Assembly (NCBI GenBank): GCA_009618505.1
Contig: WJOQ01000329.1
Coordinates: forward strand, 1 to 8,342
Reading direction: 5' to 3'
From: Clostridia bacterium
Lineage (GTDB): Bacteria; Aerophobota; Aerophobia; Aerophobales; AE-B3A
Length of the DNA: 8,342 bases
Below the pieces are notes generated by a model. The model was not told the DNA's origin and searched no databases. It worked only from the letters and a program-made list of their open reading frames with translations. The translations under genes and the position numbers were made by a program. This document shows positions 1,818 to 8,342 of this stretch, in pieces (the first letter of the stretch is position 1; each line of letters starts with the position of its first letter).

Positions 1818-2828
1818 GTGTTAAAAAAGTTTATCAACGATCCAAAGGATGTGGTGGAAGAGATGCTGGAGGGTTTTCTGGCGGCTCACCAAAAAGAGGT
1901 GAGGAGATTAGAAACCTCAAGGGTTATAGTGAGAAAAGAGGCTCCCGTCAAGAATAAGGTAGGTCTGGTTACCGGCGGAGGTTCGGGACATAAACCTGCT
2001 TTTATTGGATATGTGGGCAAGGCTCTTATGGATGCAGTGGCGGTAGGTGATATCTTTTCTTCCCCTTCTGCTCAGCAGATTTATGATGCCATTAAAGCGG
2101 TAAATTCAGGCAAAGGTGTTCTCTGTGTATTGGGTAATTACTCTGGAGATGTGATGAACTTTGATATGGCTGCTGAGATGGCTAAAGAGGAAGGGATAGA
2201 GGTAGAACAGGTCATAATTAACGATGACGTTGGCTCAGGCCCTAAAGAGGAGATGGAAAATCGCCGGGGAGTAGCGGGAGAGGTAATCGTCTGGAAAGCT
2301 ATAGGAGCAAAAGCAGAAGAGGGAGTAAGCTTAGAAGAAATAAAAGAGGTAGCAGAAAAGGTCAATGCTAATACCAGAAGTATGGGCGTAGCTCATTCTC
2401 CTTGCGCTGTACCCTCGATGCCCCATGGAGGAAAGCCAAATTTTATCCTGGGTGAAAATGAAATGGAGATAGGCGTCGGTCATCACGGAGAGCCAGGGGT
2501 GGAAAGAGTTCCTATGAAATCAGCTGATGAAACCACAGAAATCTTGCTTAATGAAATCTTGCAAGACCTTCCGTTTAAGCGAGGAGATGAGGTAAGTGTA
2601 TTAATAAGTGGTCTGGGTTCTACTTCTTTATTGGAATTATACATTGTCTATCGCAAAGTGGCGAAAATGCTAAAGGAAAAAGAAATTAGTATTTATACCT
2701 CCTACATTGGAGAATATTTCACTTCTATGGAAATGGGCGGATACTCAGTCACTCTAACCAGGCTTGATGATGAGCTGAAGAGACTCCTGAATGCACCAGC
2801 TCATTCTCCTTTGTTCATACAAAACTAG
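1818..2828 (+). CDS. dhaK: Dihydroxyacetone kinase-like subunit DhaK (ketose-binding subunit)
   Basis: The product has 336 aa, close to the roughly 330-356 of free-standing DhaK proteins. This subunit holds a short ketose as a covalent hemiaminal on a histidine while partner DhaL supplies phosphate. Visible motifs are GGGSGH at 53-58 (His58 in the active site), GNYSGDVMNF with Asp111, IINDDV at 134-138, MPHGGKP near 201-207, and HGEPG with His223 as the substrate-linking residue. The GTG start at 1818 is preceded by AGAGGAGGG (1805-1813). It leads an operon; rpiB starts 9 nt after its stop and the rpiB ribosome site overlaps that stop. The loop after GSGH reads KPAFIGYVG rather than the E-P-A-H-A-G-Y-V-G of classical dihydroxyacetone kinases, suggesting a different ketose, for example erythrulose. 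No DhaM is present, so whether phosphate comes from ATP or a PTS carrier is unclear. Confidence 0.92.
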   Translation: MLKKFINDPKDVVEEMLEGFLAAHQKEVRRLETSRVIVRKEAPVKNKVGLVTGGGSGHKPAFIGYVGKALMDAVAVGDIFSSPSAQQIYDAIKAVNSGKGVLCVLGNYSGDVMNFDMAAEMAKEEGIEVEQVIINDDVGSGPKEEMENRRGVAGEVIVWKAIGAKAEEGVSLEEIKEVAEKVNANTRSMGVAHSPCAVPSMPHGGKPNFILGENEMEIGVGHHGEPGVERVPMKSADETTEILLNEILQDLPFKRGDEVSVLISGLGSTSLLELYIVYRKVAKMLKEKEISIYTSYIGEYFTSMEMGGYSVTLTRLDDELKRLLNAPAHSPLFIQN

Positions 2829-2837
2829 GAGAATTCA

Positions 2838-3287
2838 ATGAAAATAGCTATCGGAAGTGACCACCTAGGTTTAGAACTTAAGAATATAATCAGAGATTTC
2901 TTAAAAGAAAAAGAAATAGAAGTAAATGATTTTGGAACAATGTCCAAGGAGCCCATTGATTACCCTGATATAGCCAAGAAAGTAGCCAAAGCAGTTGCCA
3001 AAGGCGATTGCGAGAGAGGTATCCTTATCTGTGGGACAGGAATAGGGATGGCTATTGCTGCCAACAAGGTAAAAGGGATAAGAGCTGCCGTCTGCCATGA
3101 CCTATACTCTACTGAAAGGTCTAGAAAGAGCAATAATGCTCAAATAATGGCCATAGGAGCTCTAATAATAGGTTCGGAGCTGGCAAAGAAATTGGTGGAG
3201 GTATGGCTGAACTCAGAATTTCAAGGAGGTCGCTCAGAGCGAAAGGTGAAGAAAATAATGGAAATTGAGACGGAAAACTCTTCTTAG
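2838..3287 (+). CDS. rpiB: RpiB/LacAB-family phosphosugar isomerase
   Basis: The product is 149 aa, the normal size for RpiB, which interconverts phosphorylated aldoses and ketoses (ribose-5-P/ribulose-5-P, or other phosphosugars in paralogues). It begins MKIAIGSDHLGLELK with Asp8 and His9. The catalytic-base motif ICGTGIGMAIAANKVKGIRAA follows with Cys65, then HDLYSTERSRKSNNAQIM at 87-104, and a C-terminal FQGGRSERKVKKI phosphate-binding region. AGGAG at 2827-2831 gives a good start at 2838. The usual S-R-x-H-N-[ND]-A motif carries Ser98 instead of His, and the later G-G-R-H motif carries Ser133. The conserved His acts in ring opening in studied ribose-phosphate enzymes, so a substrate that is already linear, such as a tetrulose phosphate, would fit. 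Placement between dhaK and dhaL supports a role downstream of the kinase. In erythritol and threitol pathways an RpiB paralogue isomerises D-erythrulose-4-phosphate. Confidence 0.9.
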   Translation: MKIAIGSDHLGLELKNIIRDFLKEKEIEVNDFGTMSKEPIDYPDIAKKVAKAVAKGDCERGILICGTGIGMAIAANKVKGIRAAVCHDLYSTERSRKSNNAQIMAIGALIIGSELAKKLVEVWLNSEFQGGRSERKVKKIMEIETENSS

Positions 3288-3303
3288 TTCATTCGAAAGA
3301 AAG

Positions 3304-3308
3304 AAGGA
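3304..3308 (+). promoter_or_regulatory. Ribosome binding site supporting the TTG start of dhaL
   Basis: AAGGA lies 7 nt before the TTG at 3316. No ATG occurs in frame until 3358, which would remove 14 residues of the first DhaL helix. This site and the family's N-terminal length both favour 3316. Confidence 0.5.
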
Positions 3309-3315
3309 TAAGTTA

Positions 3316-3999
3316 TTGTTCAAGAAAGAAAATTCATACAGCAAGATAAAGAAAATTATGAAAAGTATTGTCAAGGAACTTGAAGAAAAGAGAGATTACC
3401 TGAATCGACTGGATGGAGAAATTGGTGACGGAGACCATGGAAGAACTATCACCAATGCTTTTAAAAAGGCACAGGAGGTATTGTTAGAGAGTGAAAGTGG
3501 CAGAGAAGATGAAGCTCGCTTGTCATGCGAGAATGCTGACCTAGGAACCCTCTTGAAAGGGATAGGAAGAACTATTGCCTTTTCTACTGGTGCGGCGGCT
3601 GGTCCCCTATATGGAACCGCTTTTATAGAAGCGGGTAAAGCAACAGAGGGTAAAGAAGAACTTCAGCTGGAGGATTGGGCCAAATTAACTGAGGCCGCTG
3701 AAGCAGGAATCATCAAAAGAGGCAGAGGTAAGGTGGGTGAGAAAACCATGCTGGATACCTTACATCCAATGGTTGAAGCCTTGAAGGAGATGCTGGCTCA
3801 GAATAAACCATTAAAAGAAGCTCTTAGGCGAGCTAAAGAGGCAGCCCGGGAAGGCATGGAATCCACCCGGGAGATGGTTTCCAAAAGAGGAAGGTCAAGC
3901 CGACTGGGAGAGAGAACCAAGGGACACATTGACCCTGGAGCAGCTTCCACCTATTATATCATAGAAGCTATCATCGGGACTTGCCTTCAAATATGGTGA
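3316..3999 (+). CDS. dhaL: Dihydroxyacetone kinase-like subunit DhaL (nucleotide-binding subunit)
   Basis: This is the phosphate-donating partner of DhaK (DAK2 domain). The likely start is TTG at 3316, preceded by AAGGA (3304-3308) at 7-nt spacing. It gives 227 aa and places the metal-binding signature IGDGDHG at 36-42 with Asp33, within three residues of its position in E. coli DhaL. An earlier in-frame TTG at 3265 overlaps rpiB, lacks a clear ribosome site and would add 17 lysine-rich residues. Further motifs are GPLYGT at 96-101, GEKTMLDTLHP at 141-151 and RLGERTKGHIDPGAAS near 196-211, all typical of nucleotide contacts in DhaL. The usual Ser before GPLYG is Ala95. As the last gene of dhaK-rpiB-dhaL it lies 28 nt after rpiB. 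Without DhaM nearby, either ATP exchange or an unlinked PTS protein would recharge it. Confidence 0.9.
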   Translation: MFKKENSYSKIKKIMKSIVKELEEKRDYLNRLDGEIGDGDHGRTITNAFKKAQEVLLESESGREDEARLSCENADLGTLLKGIGRTIAFSTGAAAGPLYGTAFIEAGKATEGKEELQLEDWAKLTEAAEAGIIKRGRGKVGEKTMLDTLHPMVEALKEMLAQNKPLKEALRRAKEAAREGMESTREMVSKRGRSSRLGERTKGHIDPGAASTYYIIEAIIGTCLQIW

Positions 4000-4201: not shown

Positions 4202-4609
4202 TCAAAATAATATCTCTATGGCTTTATAAGGGCAGGCAGGAATACAGGCTCCACAAGCAATACACTTATCTTTATTAAAGGAAATTTCCATACTGTTACG
4301 GTCAACTACAATGGCTTCTGTGGGGCAAAGAGAAACACATACCGTACAATGGGTACACTTCTCCTCAAGCCATCTTATATCCCGAGCCAGGGACTGAATA
4401 TTTACGTTTAACCCGTTGAGATAGTCCATCCCCCTTTTCAAAGCACTTTTCTCGCCGCTGAGCTCAATCATAAGCCGACCTTCCTCTTCTGGGCTAATCT
4501 TTGCCCGGAGGATATTAACTACCAGATCATAATCTTTGATAAGTCTATAGGTAATAGGTTCCTCTACTAACTTGGGGGGGAAAGTCAAAACTAATCTTCG
4601 CTTGGCCAT
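4202..4609 (-). CDS. NIL-domain 2[4Fe-4S] ferredoxin, homocysteine-biosynthesis partner
   Basis: The product is 135 aa. Residues 1 to about 78 form a NIL domain, a small ligand-binding fold also seen at the C-terminus of methionine ABC transporter ATPases. Residues 80-135 form a bacterial-type ferredoxin with two complete C-x2-C-x2-C-x3-CP motifs: Cys85, 88, 91, 95 and Cys116, 119, 122, 126. These would hold two [4Fe-4S] clusters for low-potential electron transfer. AGGAG at 4616-4620 lies six bases before the ATG. It begins 15 nt after the DUF39 gene stop and is last in the sulfur operon. The same DUF39 + NIL-ferredoxin pair in Methanosarcina acetivorans (MA1821/MA1822) is required for O-acylhomoserine-independent homocysteine synthesis, where the ferredoxin is thought to supply reducing equivalents. 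The NIL domain may sense or bind a sulfur amino acid; that is inference. Confidence 0.9.
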   Translation of the reverse strand: MAKRRLVLTFPPKLVEEPITYRLIKDYDLVVNILRAKISPEEEGRLMIELSGEKSALKRGMDYLNGLNVNIQSLARDIRWLEEKCTHCTVCVSLCPTEAIVVDRNSMEISFNKDKCIACGACIPACPYKAIEILF

Positions 4610-4624
4610 TGTAAGCTCCTTGTC

Positions 4625-5830
4625 CTACCTTATTTTTCTTTCCCTGAGAGGTTTAAACGTTATTCCTGAATCAACCGAAGGAAGCAGTTCTACTGGCTCA
4701 GTTAAGAAAAATTCTCCTTTCTTAATCCAGCTTTTAAGAATTCCTGCAATCTTTCTTGCCTTAGCATAACTAGAGAGACTGGCTGTGGGAACTCCTTTTC
4801 CTTGAATGGTTATTTTGCCGCTTTTTAGCCGGGCATAATTTACTTCAGCTAAACTATCCGATTTGCCTTTAGGATAAGCATCACTATAGTCTATAATCTG
4901 GGCGTAAATTTCCTCATCTCTAACTGCTGTCCATTGCACTATTTCCTCATTGAGGATAGGGATCGGGAGTCCAATTCCCACTGTTAGATTCACTCCATAT
5001 CCCGTCAGCGTTGTTCCTCTCAGCCACTCTGGGCTCATTTTCTTTAAGTCACCTATTACAGCAATGGTTCCGGCCCCTGAGCGAGGAACCCCCTTTTTGG
5101 TACGAGGGACGTCAGGATTGTGCTGAGTTCCTTGCCAGGCGATGTAGCCTATTCCGCCTCCCAGAAAAATCCTCGTTCCTATGCCAATAGTCTTATAATA
5201 AGGGTCATTAAATAGGGGAGACAGTTGTCCCGCGCTACAATAATTAGCATTGCCTAATCTCGGCTGCAATATCCCCATATAAGTGTAAATGACTTTATTA
5301 GAGAGATTCACAGCCACATTATAGTTTTGATAAGCATTCCTGGGATTGAAAAGAACCGCTTCATTAAAGTCTTTTATATTGATCCAGGTCTCCAGGTTCT
5401 TGCGTGGATAGCAGTCTGTCCCATAGGCACTGGCCACCAGCTTTACATCTTTACCCGCTACCAAATCTTCAATTACATGTCCTCCTCCATATTTAAATTC
5501 CCCTGGATGGACTCTATTACGGGGATCATTATCAGGAAGGGCAGCAGCTCCCAGGAAAAAATCTACAGCAGCCAGACCCGTATAAACAGGAACTTCGTTA
5601 AGGCAAGTTTGTCCTCCCCCCAGTTTTATCTTGGGCTTAGAATGTCCTGTGTTAAAGTAAGCTCCTGAGGAGCACATTGGTCCAAAGGTGGCACTGGTAA
5701 CAATGTCTATCTGACGAGCAGCTCTCTCAACCCCCTTTTTCTCCACCAGGTCTATGATCTCCTCTGCAGTTACTACTGCTACGTTCCCTTTTTTTATCTT
5801 CTCATTTATTTCAGCAATTGTTTTGGCCAT
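4625..5830 (-). CDS. DUF39/HcyBio homocysteine-biosynthesis protein
   Basis: The product is 401 aa and belongs to the DUF39 (HcyBio) family, which converts aspartate semialdehyde and a sulfide or persulfide source to homocysteine without homoserine activation. Recognisable segments are MAKTIAEINEKI at the start, VTSATFGPMCSSGAYFN at 44-60 with Cys53, KLGGGQTCLNEVPVYTG near 69-85, KYGGGHVIEDLVAG at 113-126, SAYGTDCYPRK with Cys140, and FLGGGIGYIAWQGTQHNPD. Two conserved cysteines were shown to matter for the methanogen protein, with one persulfidated; Cys53 and Cys140 are the best candidates here. No CBS domain is attached, unlike some relatives. The ATG at 5830 is preceded by a GA-rich AGAGAGAGGAA. 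It follows cysK by 55 nt and precedes the NIL-ferredoxin by 15 nt. The neighbouring desulfurase suggests that sulfur may be delivered as an IscS-type persulfide. Confidence 0.9.
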   Translation of the reverse strand: MAKTIAEINEKIKKGNVAVVTAEEIIDLVEKKGVERAARQIDIVTSATFGPMCSSGAYFNTGHSKPKIKLGGGQTCLNEVPVYTGLAAVDFFLGAAALPDNDPRNRVHPGEFKYGGGHVIEDLVAGKDVKLVASAYGTDCYPRKNLETWINIKDFNEAVLFNPRNAYQNYNVAVNLSNKVIYTYMGILQPRLGNANYCSAGQLSPLFNDPYYKTIGIGTRIFLGGGIGYIAWQGTQHNPDVPRTKKGVPRSGAGTIAVIGDLKKMSPEWLRGTTLTGYGVNLTVGIGLPIPILNEEIVQWTAVRDEEIYAQIIDYSDAYPKGKSDSLAEVNYARLKSGKITIQGKGVPTASLSSYAKARKIAGILKSWIKKGEFFLTEPVELLPSVDSGITFKPLRERKIR

Positions 5831-5885
5831 TTCCTCTCTCTCTGGTATTTATTTTATCTAATCATATCAGCTAAGAGTCAATATT

Positions 5886-6809
5886 TCAAGTAAATAATTT
5901 TGTACTCAAATATCTCTCCCCGCTATCAGGAAGAATGACTACAATAAGCTTTCCACTAGTTTCTTTTCTTTTAGCTACCTTCAAAGCAGCAAATGCAGCC
6001 GCCCCGGAAGAAATTCCAGCCAGGATTCCTTCTTCCCGCATTAATCTGCGAGCAGTGAGAATAGCCTCTTCACTCTTCACTTTGACAACCTCATCTATTA
6101 GTTCTAGCTCAAGCACTTCCGGTATGAAGCCAGCCCCAATCCCCTGGATTTTGTGAGAGCCAGCTTTTCCACCAGATAGAACGGGAGACTCTGCTGGTTC
6201 CACAGCTATAGCCTTTAGAGTTGGCTTCTTCTTCTTTATAAATCTGGCAACGCCGGTAATTGTGCCGCCTGTACCTACGCCACTTATCAGGATATCTATT
6301 CTGCCTTTACTGTCTTCCCATATTTCCCTGGCTGTTGTCCGATAATGGACACCAGGATTAGCAGGATTATTGAATTGTTGAGGAATAAAGACTCGGCAGT
6401 CATTAGCTGCTAGCTCCTCTGCCTTCTTTATAGCTCCTTTCATCCCCTCTGAACCAGGAGTTAAGATGAGCTCTGCTCCAAAGGCTTTGAGTAAAGACCT
6501 TCTCTCCAAACTCATAGTGTCAGGCATAGTGAGGATTAGTTTATAACCTTTTACGGCAGCTACAAGAGCTAAAGCAATGCCAGTATTTCCACTAGTTGGC
6601 TCCACAATAATGGTCTCTTTATTAATGAGCTTTTTCTTTTCTGCTGTTTCGAGCATACTCAAGCCGATACGATCTTTTACACTTCCACAGGGGTTAAAAG
6701 ACTCTAATTTTGCCACCACTTCTGCTCCCAAGCCTCTAACTACCCTATTTAGCCTGACCAAAGGGGTCTTTCCTATTAGTTCAGTGATACTATCGGCTAT
6801 CTTAGTCAC
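5886..6809 (-). CDS. cysK: Cysteine synthase (O-acetylserine sulfhydrylase), PLP-dependent
   Basis: The product has 307 aa, the normal size of CysK, which forms cysteine from O-acetylserine and sulfide. The PLP lysine is Lys45 in NPCGSVKDR. The substrate loop TSGNTG is at 72-77, the phosphate-binding GVGTGGT at 177-183, [11 protein letters not shown] at 220-230, and SSGAA at 267-271 supplies the pyridine-nitrogen contact. The C-terminus [10 protein letters not shown] is standard. The GTG start at 6809 is set by GGGAGG (6817-6822), whose first G is the last base of the iscS stop codon. The gap to iscS is 12 nt, so the two are surely cotranscribed. No serine acetyltransferase is in view. Use of O-phosphoserine or another activated serine cannot be excluded from sequence, but the motifs look like ordinary O-acetylserine enzymes. 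It probably supplies cysteine to the adjacent desulfurase. Confidence 0.93.
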
Positions 6810-6816
6810 TACTGCA

Positions 6817-6822
6817 CCTCCC
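6817..6822 (-). promoter_or_regulatory. Ribosome binding site fixing the GTG start of cysK
   Basis: GGGAGG lies 7 nt before the GTG at 6809 and overlaps the last base of the iscS stop codon. It makes the GTG the clear start and implies tight translational linkage between desulfurase and cysteine synthase. Confidence 0.6.
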
Positions 6823-7991
6823 TAATCCTTTTTTTCTGGAAAAAGAGGAGACATTTCTCTCAATCTTCCCACAATCTCAACCAGATTCTCCACCGTATAA
6901 TCTATATCTTCTTCCTTGTTCTCCCTGCCCAGAGAAAACCTTATTGAACCTTGAGCTATTGCCGGTGGAACTCCAATAGCTGAAAGTACATGCGATGGTT
7001 CCAGAGAACCAGAAGCACAGGCTGAACCGGTAGAGACTGCGACTCCTTTCAAGTCTAAATTCAAAACTAAGGATTCTCCTTCTATAAACTCAAAAGAGAC
7101 ATTGGAGGTGTTGGGCAGTCTCTCAGTGGGATGACCATTAAAACGAATATAATCTATATTATCTTTGATTTTATTCTCCAGTTCATCTCGCAACTTCTTT
7201 ACATGACTATACTCTTGTTTCATTTCTTTACCGGCAATTTTAGATGCCTCTCCTAACCCCACTATACCGGGAACATTCTCTGTCCCTGCTCGACGCTTCC
7301 TTTCCTGCTCTCCTCCATGAATCAAGGGATGAATCTTGGTGCCCTTGCGGATATATAAGGCTCCTACCCCCTTAGGGCCGTAGAACTTGTGGGCCGATAA
7401 AGAAAGAAGGTCCATTCCTAACTCATTTACATCTATGGGTATTTTCCCCACGGTTTGAACAGCATCAGTATGAAAATAAACTCCACATTCACGGGCAATT
7501 TTCCCAATCTCTGCAATTGGCTCGATGGTCCCTATCTCATTATTAGCATGGATGATGCTGATGAGAACAGTCTTGTTGGTAATCGCCTCTTTTACCCGGT
7601 CAGGATCAAGCCAGCCATACCTATCTACCGGTAGATAGGTTATCTTCTTACCCATTTTTTCTAAGTATTTACAGGCAAACAGGACAGCATGATGCTCTAT
7701 GGAAGAGGTGATGATATGTCCTCCCTTTCCCTTGAGAGCGGAGGCTACTCCCTTTAGTGCAAAATTATCGGCTTCTGTCCCTCCACTGGTAAAGACTATC
7801 TCTTCCGGTTCGGCTCCGATTAGACAGGCTAATGCCTCTCTGGCATCATCGATTGCTTTCCTTGCCTCTTGCCCGAAAGAGTATATGGTAGAAGCATTAC
7901 CAAAAACACTCTTATAATAAGGTAGCACTGCTTCTAAAACCCCCGGATGAAGGGGAGTGGTAGCATTATAGTCTAAGTATATGCGTCTCAT
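6822..7991 (-). CDS. iscS: Cysteine desulfurase, NifS/IscS family (class I)
   Basis: The product is 389 aa, a PLP enzyme that removes sulfur from cysteine as an enzyme-bound persulfide, giving alanine. Motifs in order are IYLDYNATTPLHP at 4-16, SGGTEADN at 69-76, SSIEHHAV with His100 over the PLP ring, HANNEIGT at 148-155, FHTDAVQTVGK with Asp176 and Gln179, SAHKFYGPKG with the PLP lysine Lys202, RAGTENV at 234-240, and the mobile catalytic loop TGSACASGS with Cys325. The longer Ser-Ala-Cys loop marks the class I (NifS/IscS) type rather than SufS. The ATG at 7991 is preceded by GGAGAGGA. It lies 12 nt after the Rrf2 regulator and 12 nt before cysK. No IscU-type scaffold gene is visible in the operon, so besides Fe-S assembly it may feed persulfide to the DUF39 enzyme. 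Confidence 0.93.
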   Translation of the reverse strand: MRRIYLDYNATTPLHPGVLEAVLPYYKSVFGNASTIYSFGQEARKAIDDAREALACLIGAEPEEIVFTSGGTEADNFALKGVASALKGKGGHIITSSIEHHAVLFACKYLEKMGKKITYLPVDRYGWLDPDRVKEAITNKTVLISIIHANNEIGTIEPIAEIGKIARECGVYFHTDAVQTVGKIPIDVNELGMDLLSLSAHKFYGPKGVGALYIRKGTKIHPLIHGGEQERKRRAGTENVPGIVGLGEASKIAGKEMKQEYSHVKKLRDELENKIKDNIDYIRFNGHPTERLPNTSNVSFEFIEGESLVLNLDLKGVAVSTGSACASGSLEPSHVLSAIGVPPAIAQGSIRFSLGRENKEEDIDYTVENLVEIVGRLREMSPLFPEKKD

Positions 7992-8003
7992 TCAATCCTC
8001 TCC

Positions 8004-8342
8004 TCAAATTTGAAAAATGTATTTGTGCTCAGGCTGCGAAAGGCTGGATGTCTTCCTTGACTTCTCAAGTAAATCCTCCAGACTGGTCTTCTCTAAAACC
8101 TCTTTTATCTTATCCCCTAACTCTCTCCAGAGGAGTCGGGGTGAACAATCTGTTATATATTTACAGTGAGCCTTTTCTTTGTTATCGAGGCAACCAACAG
8201 GAGTTACAGCCTCCTTTAAAGCTTTCATAATATCCATTATTTTGATTTCTCTTGCTCTCAAGCTAAGTAAAAAGCCTCCTCCTGGTCCTCTTACACTCTT
8301 CACTAATCCTGCCTTACGCAGTTGATTGAAGATTTGCTCTAA
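8004..8342 (-). CDS. Rrf2/IscR-family transcriptional regulator, 5' end beyond window
   Basis: The last 112 codons are visible and the frame stays open through the right edge, so about 30-40 N-terminal residues are missing. The visible part starts in the recognition helix (LEQIFNQLRKAGLVKSVRG) and runs into the wing PGGGFLLSL, the signature of Rrf2 winged-helix regulators. Three cysteines follow in GCLDNKEKAHCKYITDC, with spacing C-x8-C-x5-C. These correspond to the cluster ligands of IscR/NsrR-type proteins and precede the usual R-x-L-W helix. An Fe-S cluster is therefore likely, in contrast to CymR, which lacks one. As first gene of a sulfur operon it probably regulates its own transcript in response to Fe-S status, sulfur supply or a redox signal. 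The operator would lie beyond position 8342. Confidence 0.88.
   Translation of the reverse strand, partial: LEQIFNQLRKAGLVKSVRGPGGGFLLSLRAREIKIMDIMKALKEAVTPVGCLDNKEKAHCKYITDCSPRLLWRELGDKIKEVLEKTSLEDLLEKSRKTSSLSQPEHKYIFQI

Follow-up and report, generated by a model that had tools for sequence, protein, structure and literature searches.

The 8,342-nucleotide stretch of DNA analysed here (the window; contig WJOQ01000329.1) is best read as carrying an operon by which an uncultured, Aerophobetes-like bacterium assimilates sulfur. On its minus strand, genes for an Rrf2-family regulator, a NifS-type cysteine desulfurase, cysteine synthase A (CysK), a DUF39 protein and a ferredoxin with a NIL domain (NIL-ferredoxin) follow one another, and in the closest relatives they are preceded by cysE. 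With a probability of about 0.72, the genes form a regulon in which CysK and DUF39 use sulfide in parallel under shared regulation, no persulfide channel from the desulfurase to DUF39 being required. CysE and CysK would fix sulfide into cysteine. DUF39 and the NIL-ferredoxin, aided by a COG2122 protein encoded elsewhere, would fix sulfide reductively into aspartate semialdehyde, yielding homocysteine without an acylhomoserine. NifS would draw on the new cysteine for persulfide sulfur, chiefly for the assembly of iron-sulfur (Fe-S) clusters, including the 4Fe-4S clusters of the NIL-ferredoxin, and also for other thio-pathways. The Rrf2 protein, whose Cx8Cx5C three-cysteine signature we take to be IscR-like, would tune the gene set to Fe-S or cysteine status. 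We infer from sequence and gene position what the enzymes do, that sulfide is the donor, that NifS serves Fe-S assembly, and that the genes are co-transcribed and regulated as described. The features of the operon are as follows.

8004..8342, minus strand, open at 8342: 3' part of the gene for an Rrf2-family regulator, N-terminus beyond the window (Pfam Rrf2 79 bits; Cx8Cx5C)
6822..7991, minus strand: NifS-type cysteine desulfurase, 389 amino acids (TIGR03402 581 bits; Pfam Aminotran_5 313 bits)
5886..6809, minus strand: cysteine synthase A (CysK, O-acetylserine sulfhydrylase), 307 amino acids, GTG start (TIGR01139 473 bits; PALP 270 bits)
5831..5885, minus strand: 55-nt gap between cysK and DUF39; a promoter-like match, not above chance, overlaps the gap and the end of cysK
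4625..5830, minus strand: DUF39/HcyBio protein, predicted large subunit of L-aspartate-semialdehyde sulfurtransferase, 401 amino acids (PF01837 506 bits)
4202..4609, minus strand: ferredoxin with a NIL domain and two 4Fe-4S motifs, predicted small subunit or electron donor, 135 amino acids (PF09383 58 bits; Fer4 58 bits, two stretches)

The coordinates of the open reading frames reproduce exactly the colinear order and the gaps of 12, 12, 55 and 15 nt on which the original prediction had been built. All five family labels of the window proteins lie above the Pfam gathering scores. The DUF39 protein reaches 505.7 bits with PF01837 against a gathering score of 26.2 bits, CysK meets the TIGR01139 equivalog with 473 bits against a cut-off of 350.95 bits, and the NIL-ferredoxin, with PF09383 and two stretches of Fer4, starts 15 nt downstream of DUF39. 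The earlier labels for Rrf2, CysK, DUF39 and the NIL-ferredoxin were thereby retained and that of IscS was replaced: the desulfurase passes the NifS equivalog TIGR03402 (581.2 bits, cut-off 530.75) and fails the IscS equivalog TIGR02006 (469.6 bits, cut-off 643.2). A purine-rich, Shine-Dalgarno-like stretch was read by eye ahead of the start of every complete gene of the operon. Regarding promoters, a match of the form TTGAAA-17-TATGAT (10 of 12 positions, 5889-5861) extends from the 3' end of cysK into the 55-nt gap upstream of DUF39. Such matches are no commoner in the window than chance would give (20 found against 15.4 ± 3.8 in shuffled sequences), so that a single transcript for the operon genes is likely, as judged from sequence. 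No riboswitch or T-box was matched in Rfam at the gathering score in the window and 10 related loci, five larger loci having been excluded.

The Rrf2 copy is truncated by the window edge and covers positions 40-131 of the 132 in the profile. An intact relative at locus L002 (818-1276, 153 amino acids) overlaps cysE. Fe-S-sensing IscR-like regulators carry three such cysteines, and the pattern was found in 28 of 33 Rrf2 rows from related loci; the truncated window copy, which shows Cx8Cx5C, is not among the 28. All four intact copies that were scanned score below both the IscR and the CymR equivalog cut-offs; the copy in L002 reaches 148.8 bits with IscR (cut-off 207.55) and 116.5 bits with CymR (cut-off 195), and passes the Rrf2 superfamily model (132.1 against 73.3 bits).

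Among the matches listed, the nearest genomes are two metagenome-assembled genomes (MAGs) of Candidatus Aerophobetes, G001 (about 1.2 Mb, locus L001) and G002 (about 2.4 Mb, locus L002), the completeness of which is not established and on which genome-wide statements about the window's organism rest. Their DUF39 proteins are 97% identical to that of the window and their NifS copies 95% identical. Both loci carry the order cysE-Rrf2-nifS-cysK-DUF39-NIL-ferredoxin with cysE overlapping the Rrf2 gene, and the serine acetyltransferase CysE of L002 is confirmed by TIGR01172. Because L002 shares the order and all four gaps with the window, and L001 differs solely in its nifS-cysK gap of 150 nt, the arrangement is not an accident of assembly.

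These two genomes also lend support to a homocysteine route without acylhomoserine. MetA (PF04204) was found in none of 25 genomes, G001 and G002 included. In the latter two, no MetX was found, one partial match of 28 bits in G002 aside, nor any full-length enzyme of PF01053 (the MetB/C/Y/Z family), for which the best match was 33 bits over 125 positions (G002). Both encode proteins of PF02774, the aspartate-semialdehyde dehydrogenase family, which presumably also includes ArgC, and both encode COG2122, to which we take PRK04334/NF003323 to correspond. On these absences and presences, the three-protein route of DUF39, NIL-ferredoxin and COG2122 from aspartate semialdehyde looks like a fit to G001 and G002. 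It is not the sole homocysteine route everywhere. Matches to PF01053 occur in 26 of 26 genomes, and in 22 they exceed the Pfam cut-off. The majority, being short or weak, are taken to be cross matches from other pyridoxal-phosphate enzymes, and strong ones (>300 bits, most of the profile) are limited to G006, G019, G020, G021, G026 and G032. MetX-like matches above 450 bits were obtained in G019, G020 and G026, the family cut-off of 500 being unreached even in matching controls. These three genomes thus hold DUF39 together with MetX and a PF01053 enzyme, that is, the O-acylhomoserine route too, and G006, from the window's phylum group, has a PF01053 enzyme alongside DUF39.

The function of DUF39 had been ascribed to work on methanogens, which is correct and incomplete: in the accessible part of PMC5764234, genetics in the bacterium Desulfovibrio vulgaris demonstrates that DUF39, the NIL/ferredoxin protein and COG2122 are required, that aspartate semialdehyde and sulfide are converted and that homoserine is no intermediate. 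The window system is like that of Methanosarcina acetivorans (MA1821-22) and Desulfovibrio vulgaris/alaskensis, composed of DUF39 (COG1900a), NIL/ferredoxin and COG2122, in its adjacent PF01837 and NIL-Fer4 proteins and its two invariant cysteines, and in that the closest genomes encode COG2122 and yielded no MetA, MetX or full-length PF01053 enzyme. It differs in that its genes stand in one cluster with Rrf2, nifS and cysK, with cysE in relatives; the locus numbers of the three known genes in D. vulgaris Miyazaki are far apart (DvMF_1464, 0262 and 0044; PMC5764234, in part). All 81 aligned rows share Cys53 and Cys140 of the window DUF39, in line with Cys54 and Cys131 of MA1821 by an indirect correspondence of residues. 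In MA1821, Cys54 is essential and Cys131 is not (accessible part of PMC12068725), and a conserved cysteine is persulfidated in vivo (accessible part of PMC5764234). A more distant relative is the coenzyme M synthase known as methanogenesis marker 16 (COG1900d), for which the window DUF39 scores 111 bits with TIGR03287 against a cut-off of 364; its conserved cysteines and substrate are different from those of DUF39 (PMC12068725, in part).

The recurrence of the gene linkage was analysed in loci with similarity to DUF39, of which the best 80 of at least 468 confirmed were used, a sample that leans to near relatives. Recurrent neighbours in the 80 loci are CysK, Rrf2, NIL-ferredoxin, NifS, LarE, a COG2122-type protein, Thi4 and MnmA. 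For scoring, L003 was swapped for a longer piece of its contig (L108) and the set was extended by L110-L116 and the window, giving 88 DUF39 rows, each classed as linked, unlinked with at least 4 kb on each side, or not assessable. In that order, the counts are 68/8/12 for NIL-ferredoxin, 40/20/28 for CysK, 26/25/37 for Rrf2, 26/24/38 for COG2122, 17/32/39 for NifS, 16/31/41 for LarE and 7/37/44 for CysE. CysK is also present in 14 of the 17 NifS-linked rows. Because a quick DUF39 tree requires NifS linkage to have changed at least 6 times (49 assessed rows) and CysK linkage at least 10 times (60 rows), the association of both with DUF39 is, on that tree, one that was gained or lost repeatedly. 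It can be observed that the arrangement varies: the Rrf2-NifS pair lies upstream of DUF39 in the window's group, LarE-NifS lies downstream in several Omnitrophota, and the order in G051 is DUF39-NIL-ferredoxin-NifU-NifS-MnmA. DUF39 is linked to cysK and nifS again in several phyla, so that the original prediction is not refuted on the ground of non-conserved linkage.

LarE, a sacrificial sulfur transferase, stands near DUF39 in 16 of the 88 rows (L007, L009, L015, L025, L036, L038, L039, L046, L047, L049, L052, L055, L062, L065, L067 and L077), often between NIL-ferredoxin and NifS. The slot that it holds is the position of the COG2122-type gene in Chloroflexota.

A less biased sample was provided by the Omnitrophota group (the phylum of G028), where DUF39 was found in 42 of 145 genomes, with 42 of 43 rows used after exclusion of one partial second DUF39 row of G068. 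NifS was detected at E <= 1e-60 in 28 of these 42 genomes, NifS rows having been entered solely from DUF39-bearing genomes, and in 16 of the 42 it lies within 10 kb of DUF39, all on the same strand. Since about 0.42 such genomes would be expected, a value computed with rounded genome sizes and ignoring kinship, the linkage of nifS to DUF39 is real and beyond chance. Among the 12 genomes scored as unlinked, 11 have the two genes on separate contigs, leaving linkage unproven rather than excluded, and in the twelfth, G028, they are 14 kb apart.

The linked desulfurase often lies beside genes for other candidate users of its sulfur. NifU/IscU lies within 2 kb of the desulfurase in 5 of 19 related NifS loci and MnmA within 5.4 kb in 8 of 19, its identity being confirmed in two of the 8. 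The 19 loci include L124 (a piece of G012 with NifS and without DUF39, the two being 7.4 kb apart in L039), L109 (DUF39 partial), and L026 and L059 (NifS cut at the contig end). In G003, Rrf2 and NifS are followed by a ThiS-family carrier, a ThiF protein and FdhD, and like genes stand in the same order in G004. The NifS of G051 beside DUF39-NIL-ferredoxin is flanked by full NifU and MnmA, and linked desulfurases also adjoin LarE genes in some loci. Furthermore, parallels exist in the accessible part of PMC2940859: when cysteine is limiting, Clostridium perfringens induces its Rrf2-iscS-iscU-trmU cluster (cpe1786-1783), and in Bacillus CymR works with CysK. The likeness to the window extends to Rrf2 directly before the desulfurase, a cysteine-responsive logic and a tie of CysK to Rrf2. 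The differences are that no DUF39 is named in the C. perfringens cluster in that part of the source, and that the regulators of the window's relatives have the three-cysteine signature and score below both the CymR and the IscR equivalog cut-offs. Together, the position of NifS beside other sulfur clients, these parallels and the cysteine signature of Rrf2 favour a regulon for general sulfur supply.

DUF39 is, moreover, encoded in many genomes in which NifS was not detected. In the phylum group of G002 (the Aerophobetes group), 13 of 17 genomes have DUF39. With the window NifS as query, a desulfurase was found in 6 of the 13 (G001-G004, G051 and G057) and shares a contig with a DUF39 gene in 5 of these 6; in the remaining 7, no NifS was found at E <= 1e-5 except one partial match of 34 bits (G007). 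In the Omnitrophota group, NifS went undetected at E <= 1e-60 in 14 of the 42 DUF39 genomes, a threshold below which SufS could score. As far as MAGs can tell, a desulfurase is not obligatory for DUF39.

Several observations weigh against the reading of a general regulon with parallel sulfide use. NifS is above the cut-off in 24 of 42 DUF39 genomes of the Omnitrophota group against 29 of 103 other genomes (Fisher p = 0.0013, kinship not corrected). The seemingly NifS-free genomes are MAGs of which the completeness is not established; neither IscU nor SufB was detected in G005 and G006, which are also NifS-free, nor in NifS-bearing G001, so that some absences may be assembly gaps. In the window, L001 and L002, the neighbours of nifS are the regulator gene and cysK, not iscU, and a further desulfurase of G002 adjoins a NifU_N-domain protein, with a TusA protein nearby. 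From both points, the operon copy of nifS may have a dedicated client. As for G005 and G006 themselves, where no NifS, IscU or SufB was found, either the MAGs are incomplete or their Fe-S assembly route was not recognised.

The strongest competing explanation, still an unlikely one, is the channel of the original prediction, in which NifS passes persulfide from CysK-made cysteine to Cys53 of DUF39, perhaps via Cys140, and electrons from the NIL-ferredoxin complete the formation of homocysteine. The recurrence of nifS-cysK-DUF39 linkage in several orders, the CysK share of NifS-linked rows and the repeated changes of linkage would suit such a channel, as would the two invariant cysteines of DUF39, the essential Cys54 and the persulfide of MA1821, and the second desulfurase of G002, which frees the operon copy for another job. 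Against it stand the desulfurases that adjoin other clients and the DUF39 genomes in which NifS was not detected (7 of 13 and 14 of 42). Cysteine that is made and then desulfurated costs one O-acetylserine per sulfur. The electron need is two with sulfide and four with zero-valent sulfur, and is thus doubled for persulfide (PMC12068725, in part). Sulfide is given as the sulfur donor of the route in the accessible parts of PMC5764234 and PMC8351635, and Methanococcus maripaludis, without a SufS homologue, has sulfide as its sulfur source (PMC8351635). Finally, both closest genomes retain COG2122, a protein that other authors have put forward for the persulfide step (PMC5764234, in part). Electron need, O-acetylserine cost and the sulfide use of M. 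maripaludis together rate parallel sulfide use above a channel from NifS to DUF39, and the claim of a channelled route is not supported. In other methanogens, cysteine is a possible sulfur donor for Fe-S clusters (PMC8351635), and in plants and many microorganisms it is the primary sulfur source for methionine (PMC12647591); DUF39 is not addressed in the accessible part of either source in this connection.

A related proposal, which we regard as doubtful, is that wherever nifS is built into a DUF39 operon, NifS or a ThiS-like carrier charged by NifS is the dedicated donor to DUF39. A candidate for the carrier is the ThiS that occurs with ThiF in the NifS neighbourhood of G003 and G004. If true, homocysteine would be made from cysteine sulfur under sulfide scarcity, by a cysteine-to-homocysteine route without cystathionine. 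The persulfide of MA1821 (PMC5764234, in part) keeps a NifS-DUF39 channel of interest in tightly linked lineages.

Second copies of DUF39 were observed at L110 (G002 contig 98, 10144-11337) and L112 (G051 contig 37). That of G002 has no NIL-ferredoxin match on the same contig, and that of G051 is the copy in the order DUF39-NIL-ferredoxin-NifU-NifS-MnmA. The presence of two DUF39 genes in one genome hints at differing substrates or donors.

It is also improbable that the desulfurase is positional baggage, an older Rrf2-nifS pair that happens to lie upstream of a cysK-DUF39-NIL-ferredoxin unit with its own promoter, NifS then having no particular tie to homocysteine. Such pairs do occur at a distance from DUF39 with other genes between (8.0 kb in G003, 5.1 kb in G004), a promoter-like match, not above chance, is located at the cysK-DUF39 junction, and an Rrf2-iscS pair is known elsewhere (PMC2940859, in part). 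However, the window and L002 share the 12-nt gaps on either side of nifS, and linkage in other orders and groups is far above chance.

COG2122 was searched for with NCBIfam NF003323 in 50 genomes, those of 50 of the 80 loci picked to cover each neighbourhood type, and was found in 43, including 15 of the 17 searched genomes with NifS near DUF39 (the match in G020 is partial, at a contig end). The 7 genomes without a match are G015 and G016 (NifS near DUF39), G022 and G025 (LarE near DUF39), and G042, G043 and G049 (CysK). As it is encoded in G001 and G002, NifS has not replaced COG2122 there. The notion that NifS displaces COG2122 as the sulfur-delivery partner of DUF39 fits the coincidence of COG2122 linkage (26 rows) with NifS or LarE linkage (24 rows) in 0 of 88 rows and the NifS or LarE neighbours in four of the 7 negative genomes, yet it is scarcely credible, since a single clade of Chloroflexota accounts for most of the exclusion pattern (22 of the 26 rows with COG2122 linkage) and COG2122 persists where NifS is near. 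Displacement by NifS or LarE as a general rule was ruled out by the genome-wide search.

The pathway and each gene family are already known; the combined operon with its recurrence is a useful conserved context. In a literature search that was thin on subscription papers, no paper was found that links DUF39 with a cysteine desulfurase, nor one that describes the combined Aerophobetes operon and how it recurs. The genes cysK, nifS, DUF39, NIL-ferredoxin and three-cysteine Rrf2, with cysE in the nearest relatives, offer a compact set in which parallel sulfide use can be set against a persulfide relay. Here, the DUF39 route is placed in Aerophobetes and Omnitrophota, two groups for which automatic annotation may predict methionine auxotrophy in error; the route was missing from pathway databases in 2017 (PMC5764234, in part).

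Elsewhere in the window, dhaK-rpiB-dhaL (1818-3999, plus strand) is convergent with the sulfur operon and encodes dihydroxyacetone kinase subunits flanking ribose-5-phosphate isomerase B, in genes that overlap or lie close together; the set adjoins the sulfur operon in L002 too. Short fragments lie at 665-904 and 1556-1738, both on the minus strand, and the region 900-1800 looks like gene debris. One of the two fragments resembles the AAC(3) acetyltransferase family over roughly its first 35 residues only (26 bits, well under the cut-off), and the other has a sub-threshold match to a winged helix-turn-helix model. A perfect 15-bp tandem repeat of 2.9 copies (GAATCATGGCCTCCT) is located at 1092-1135, where there is no clear gene.

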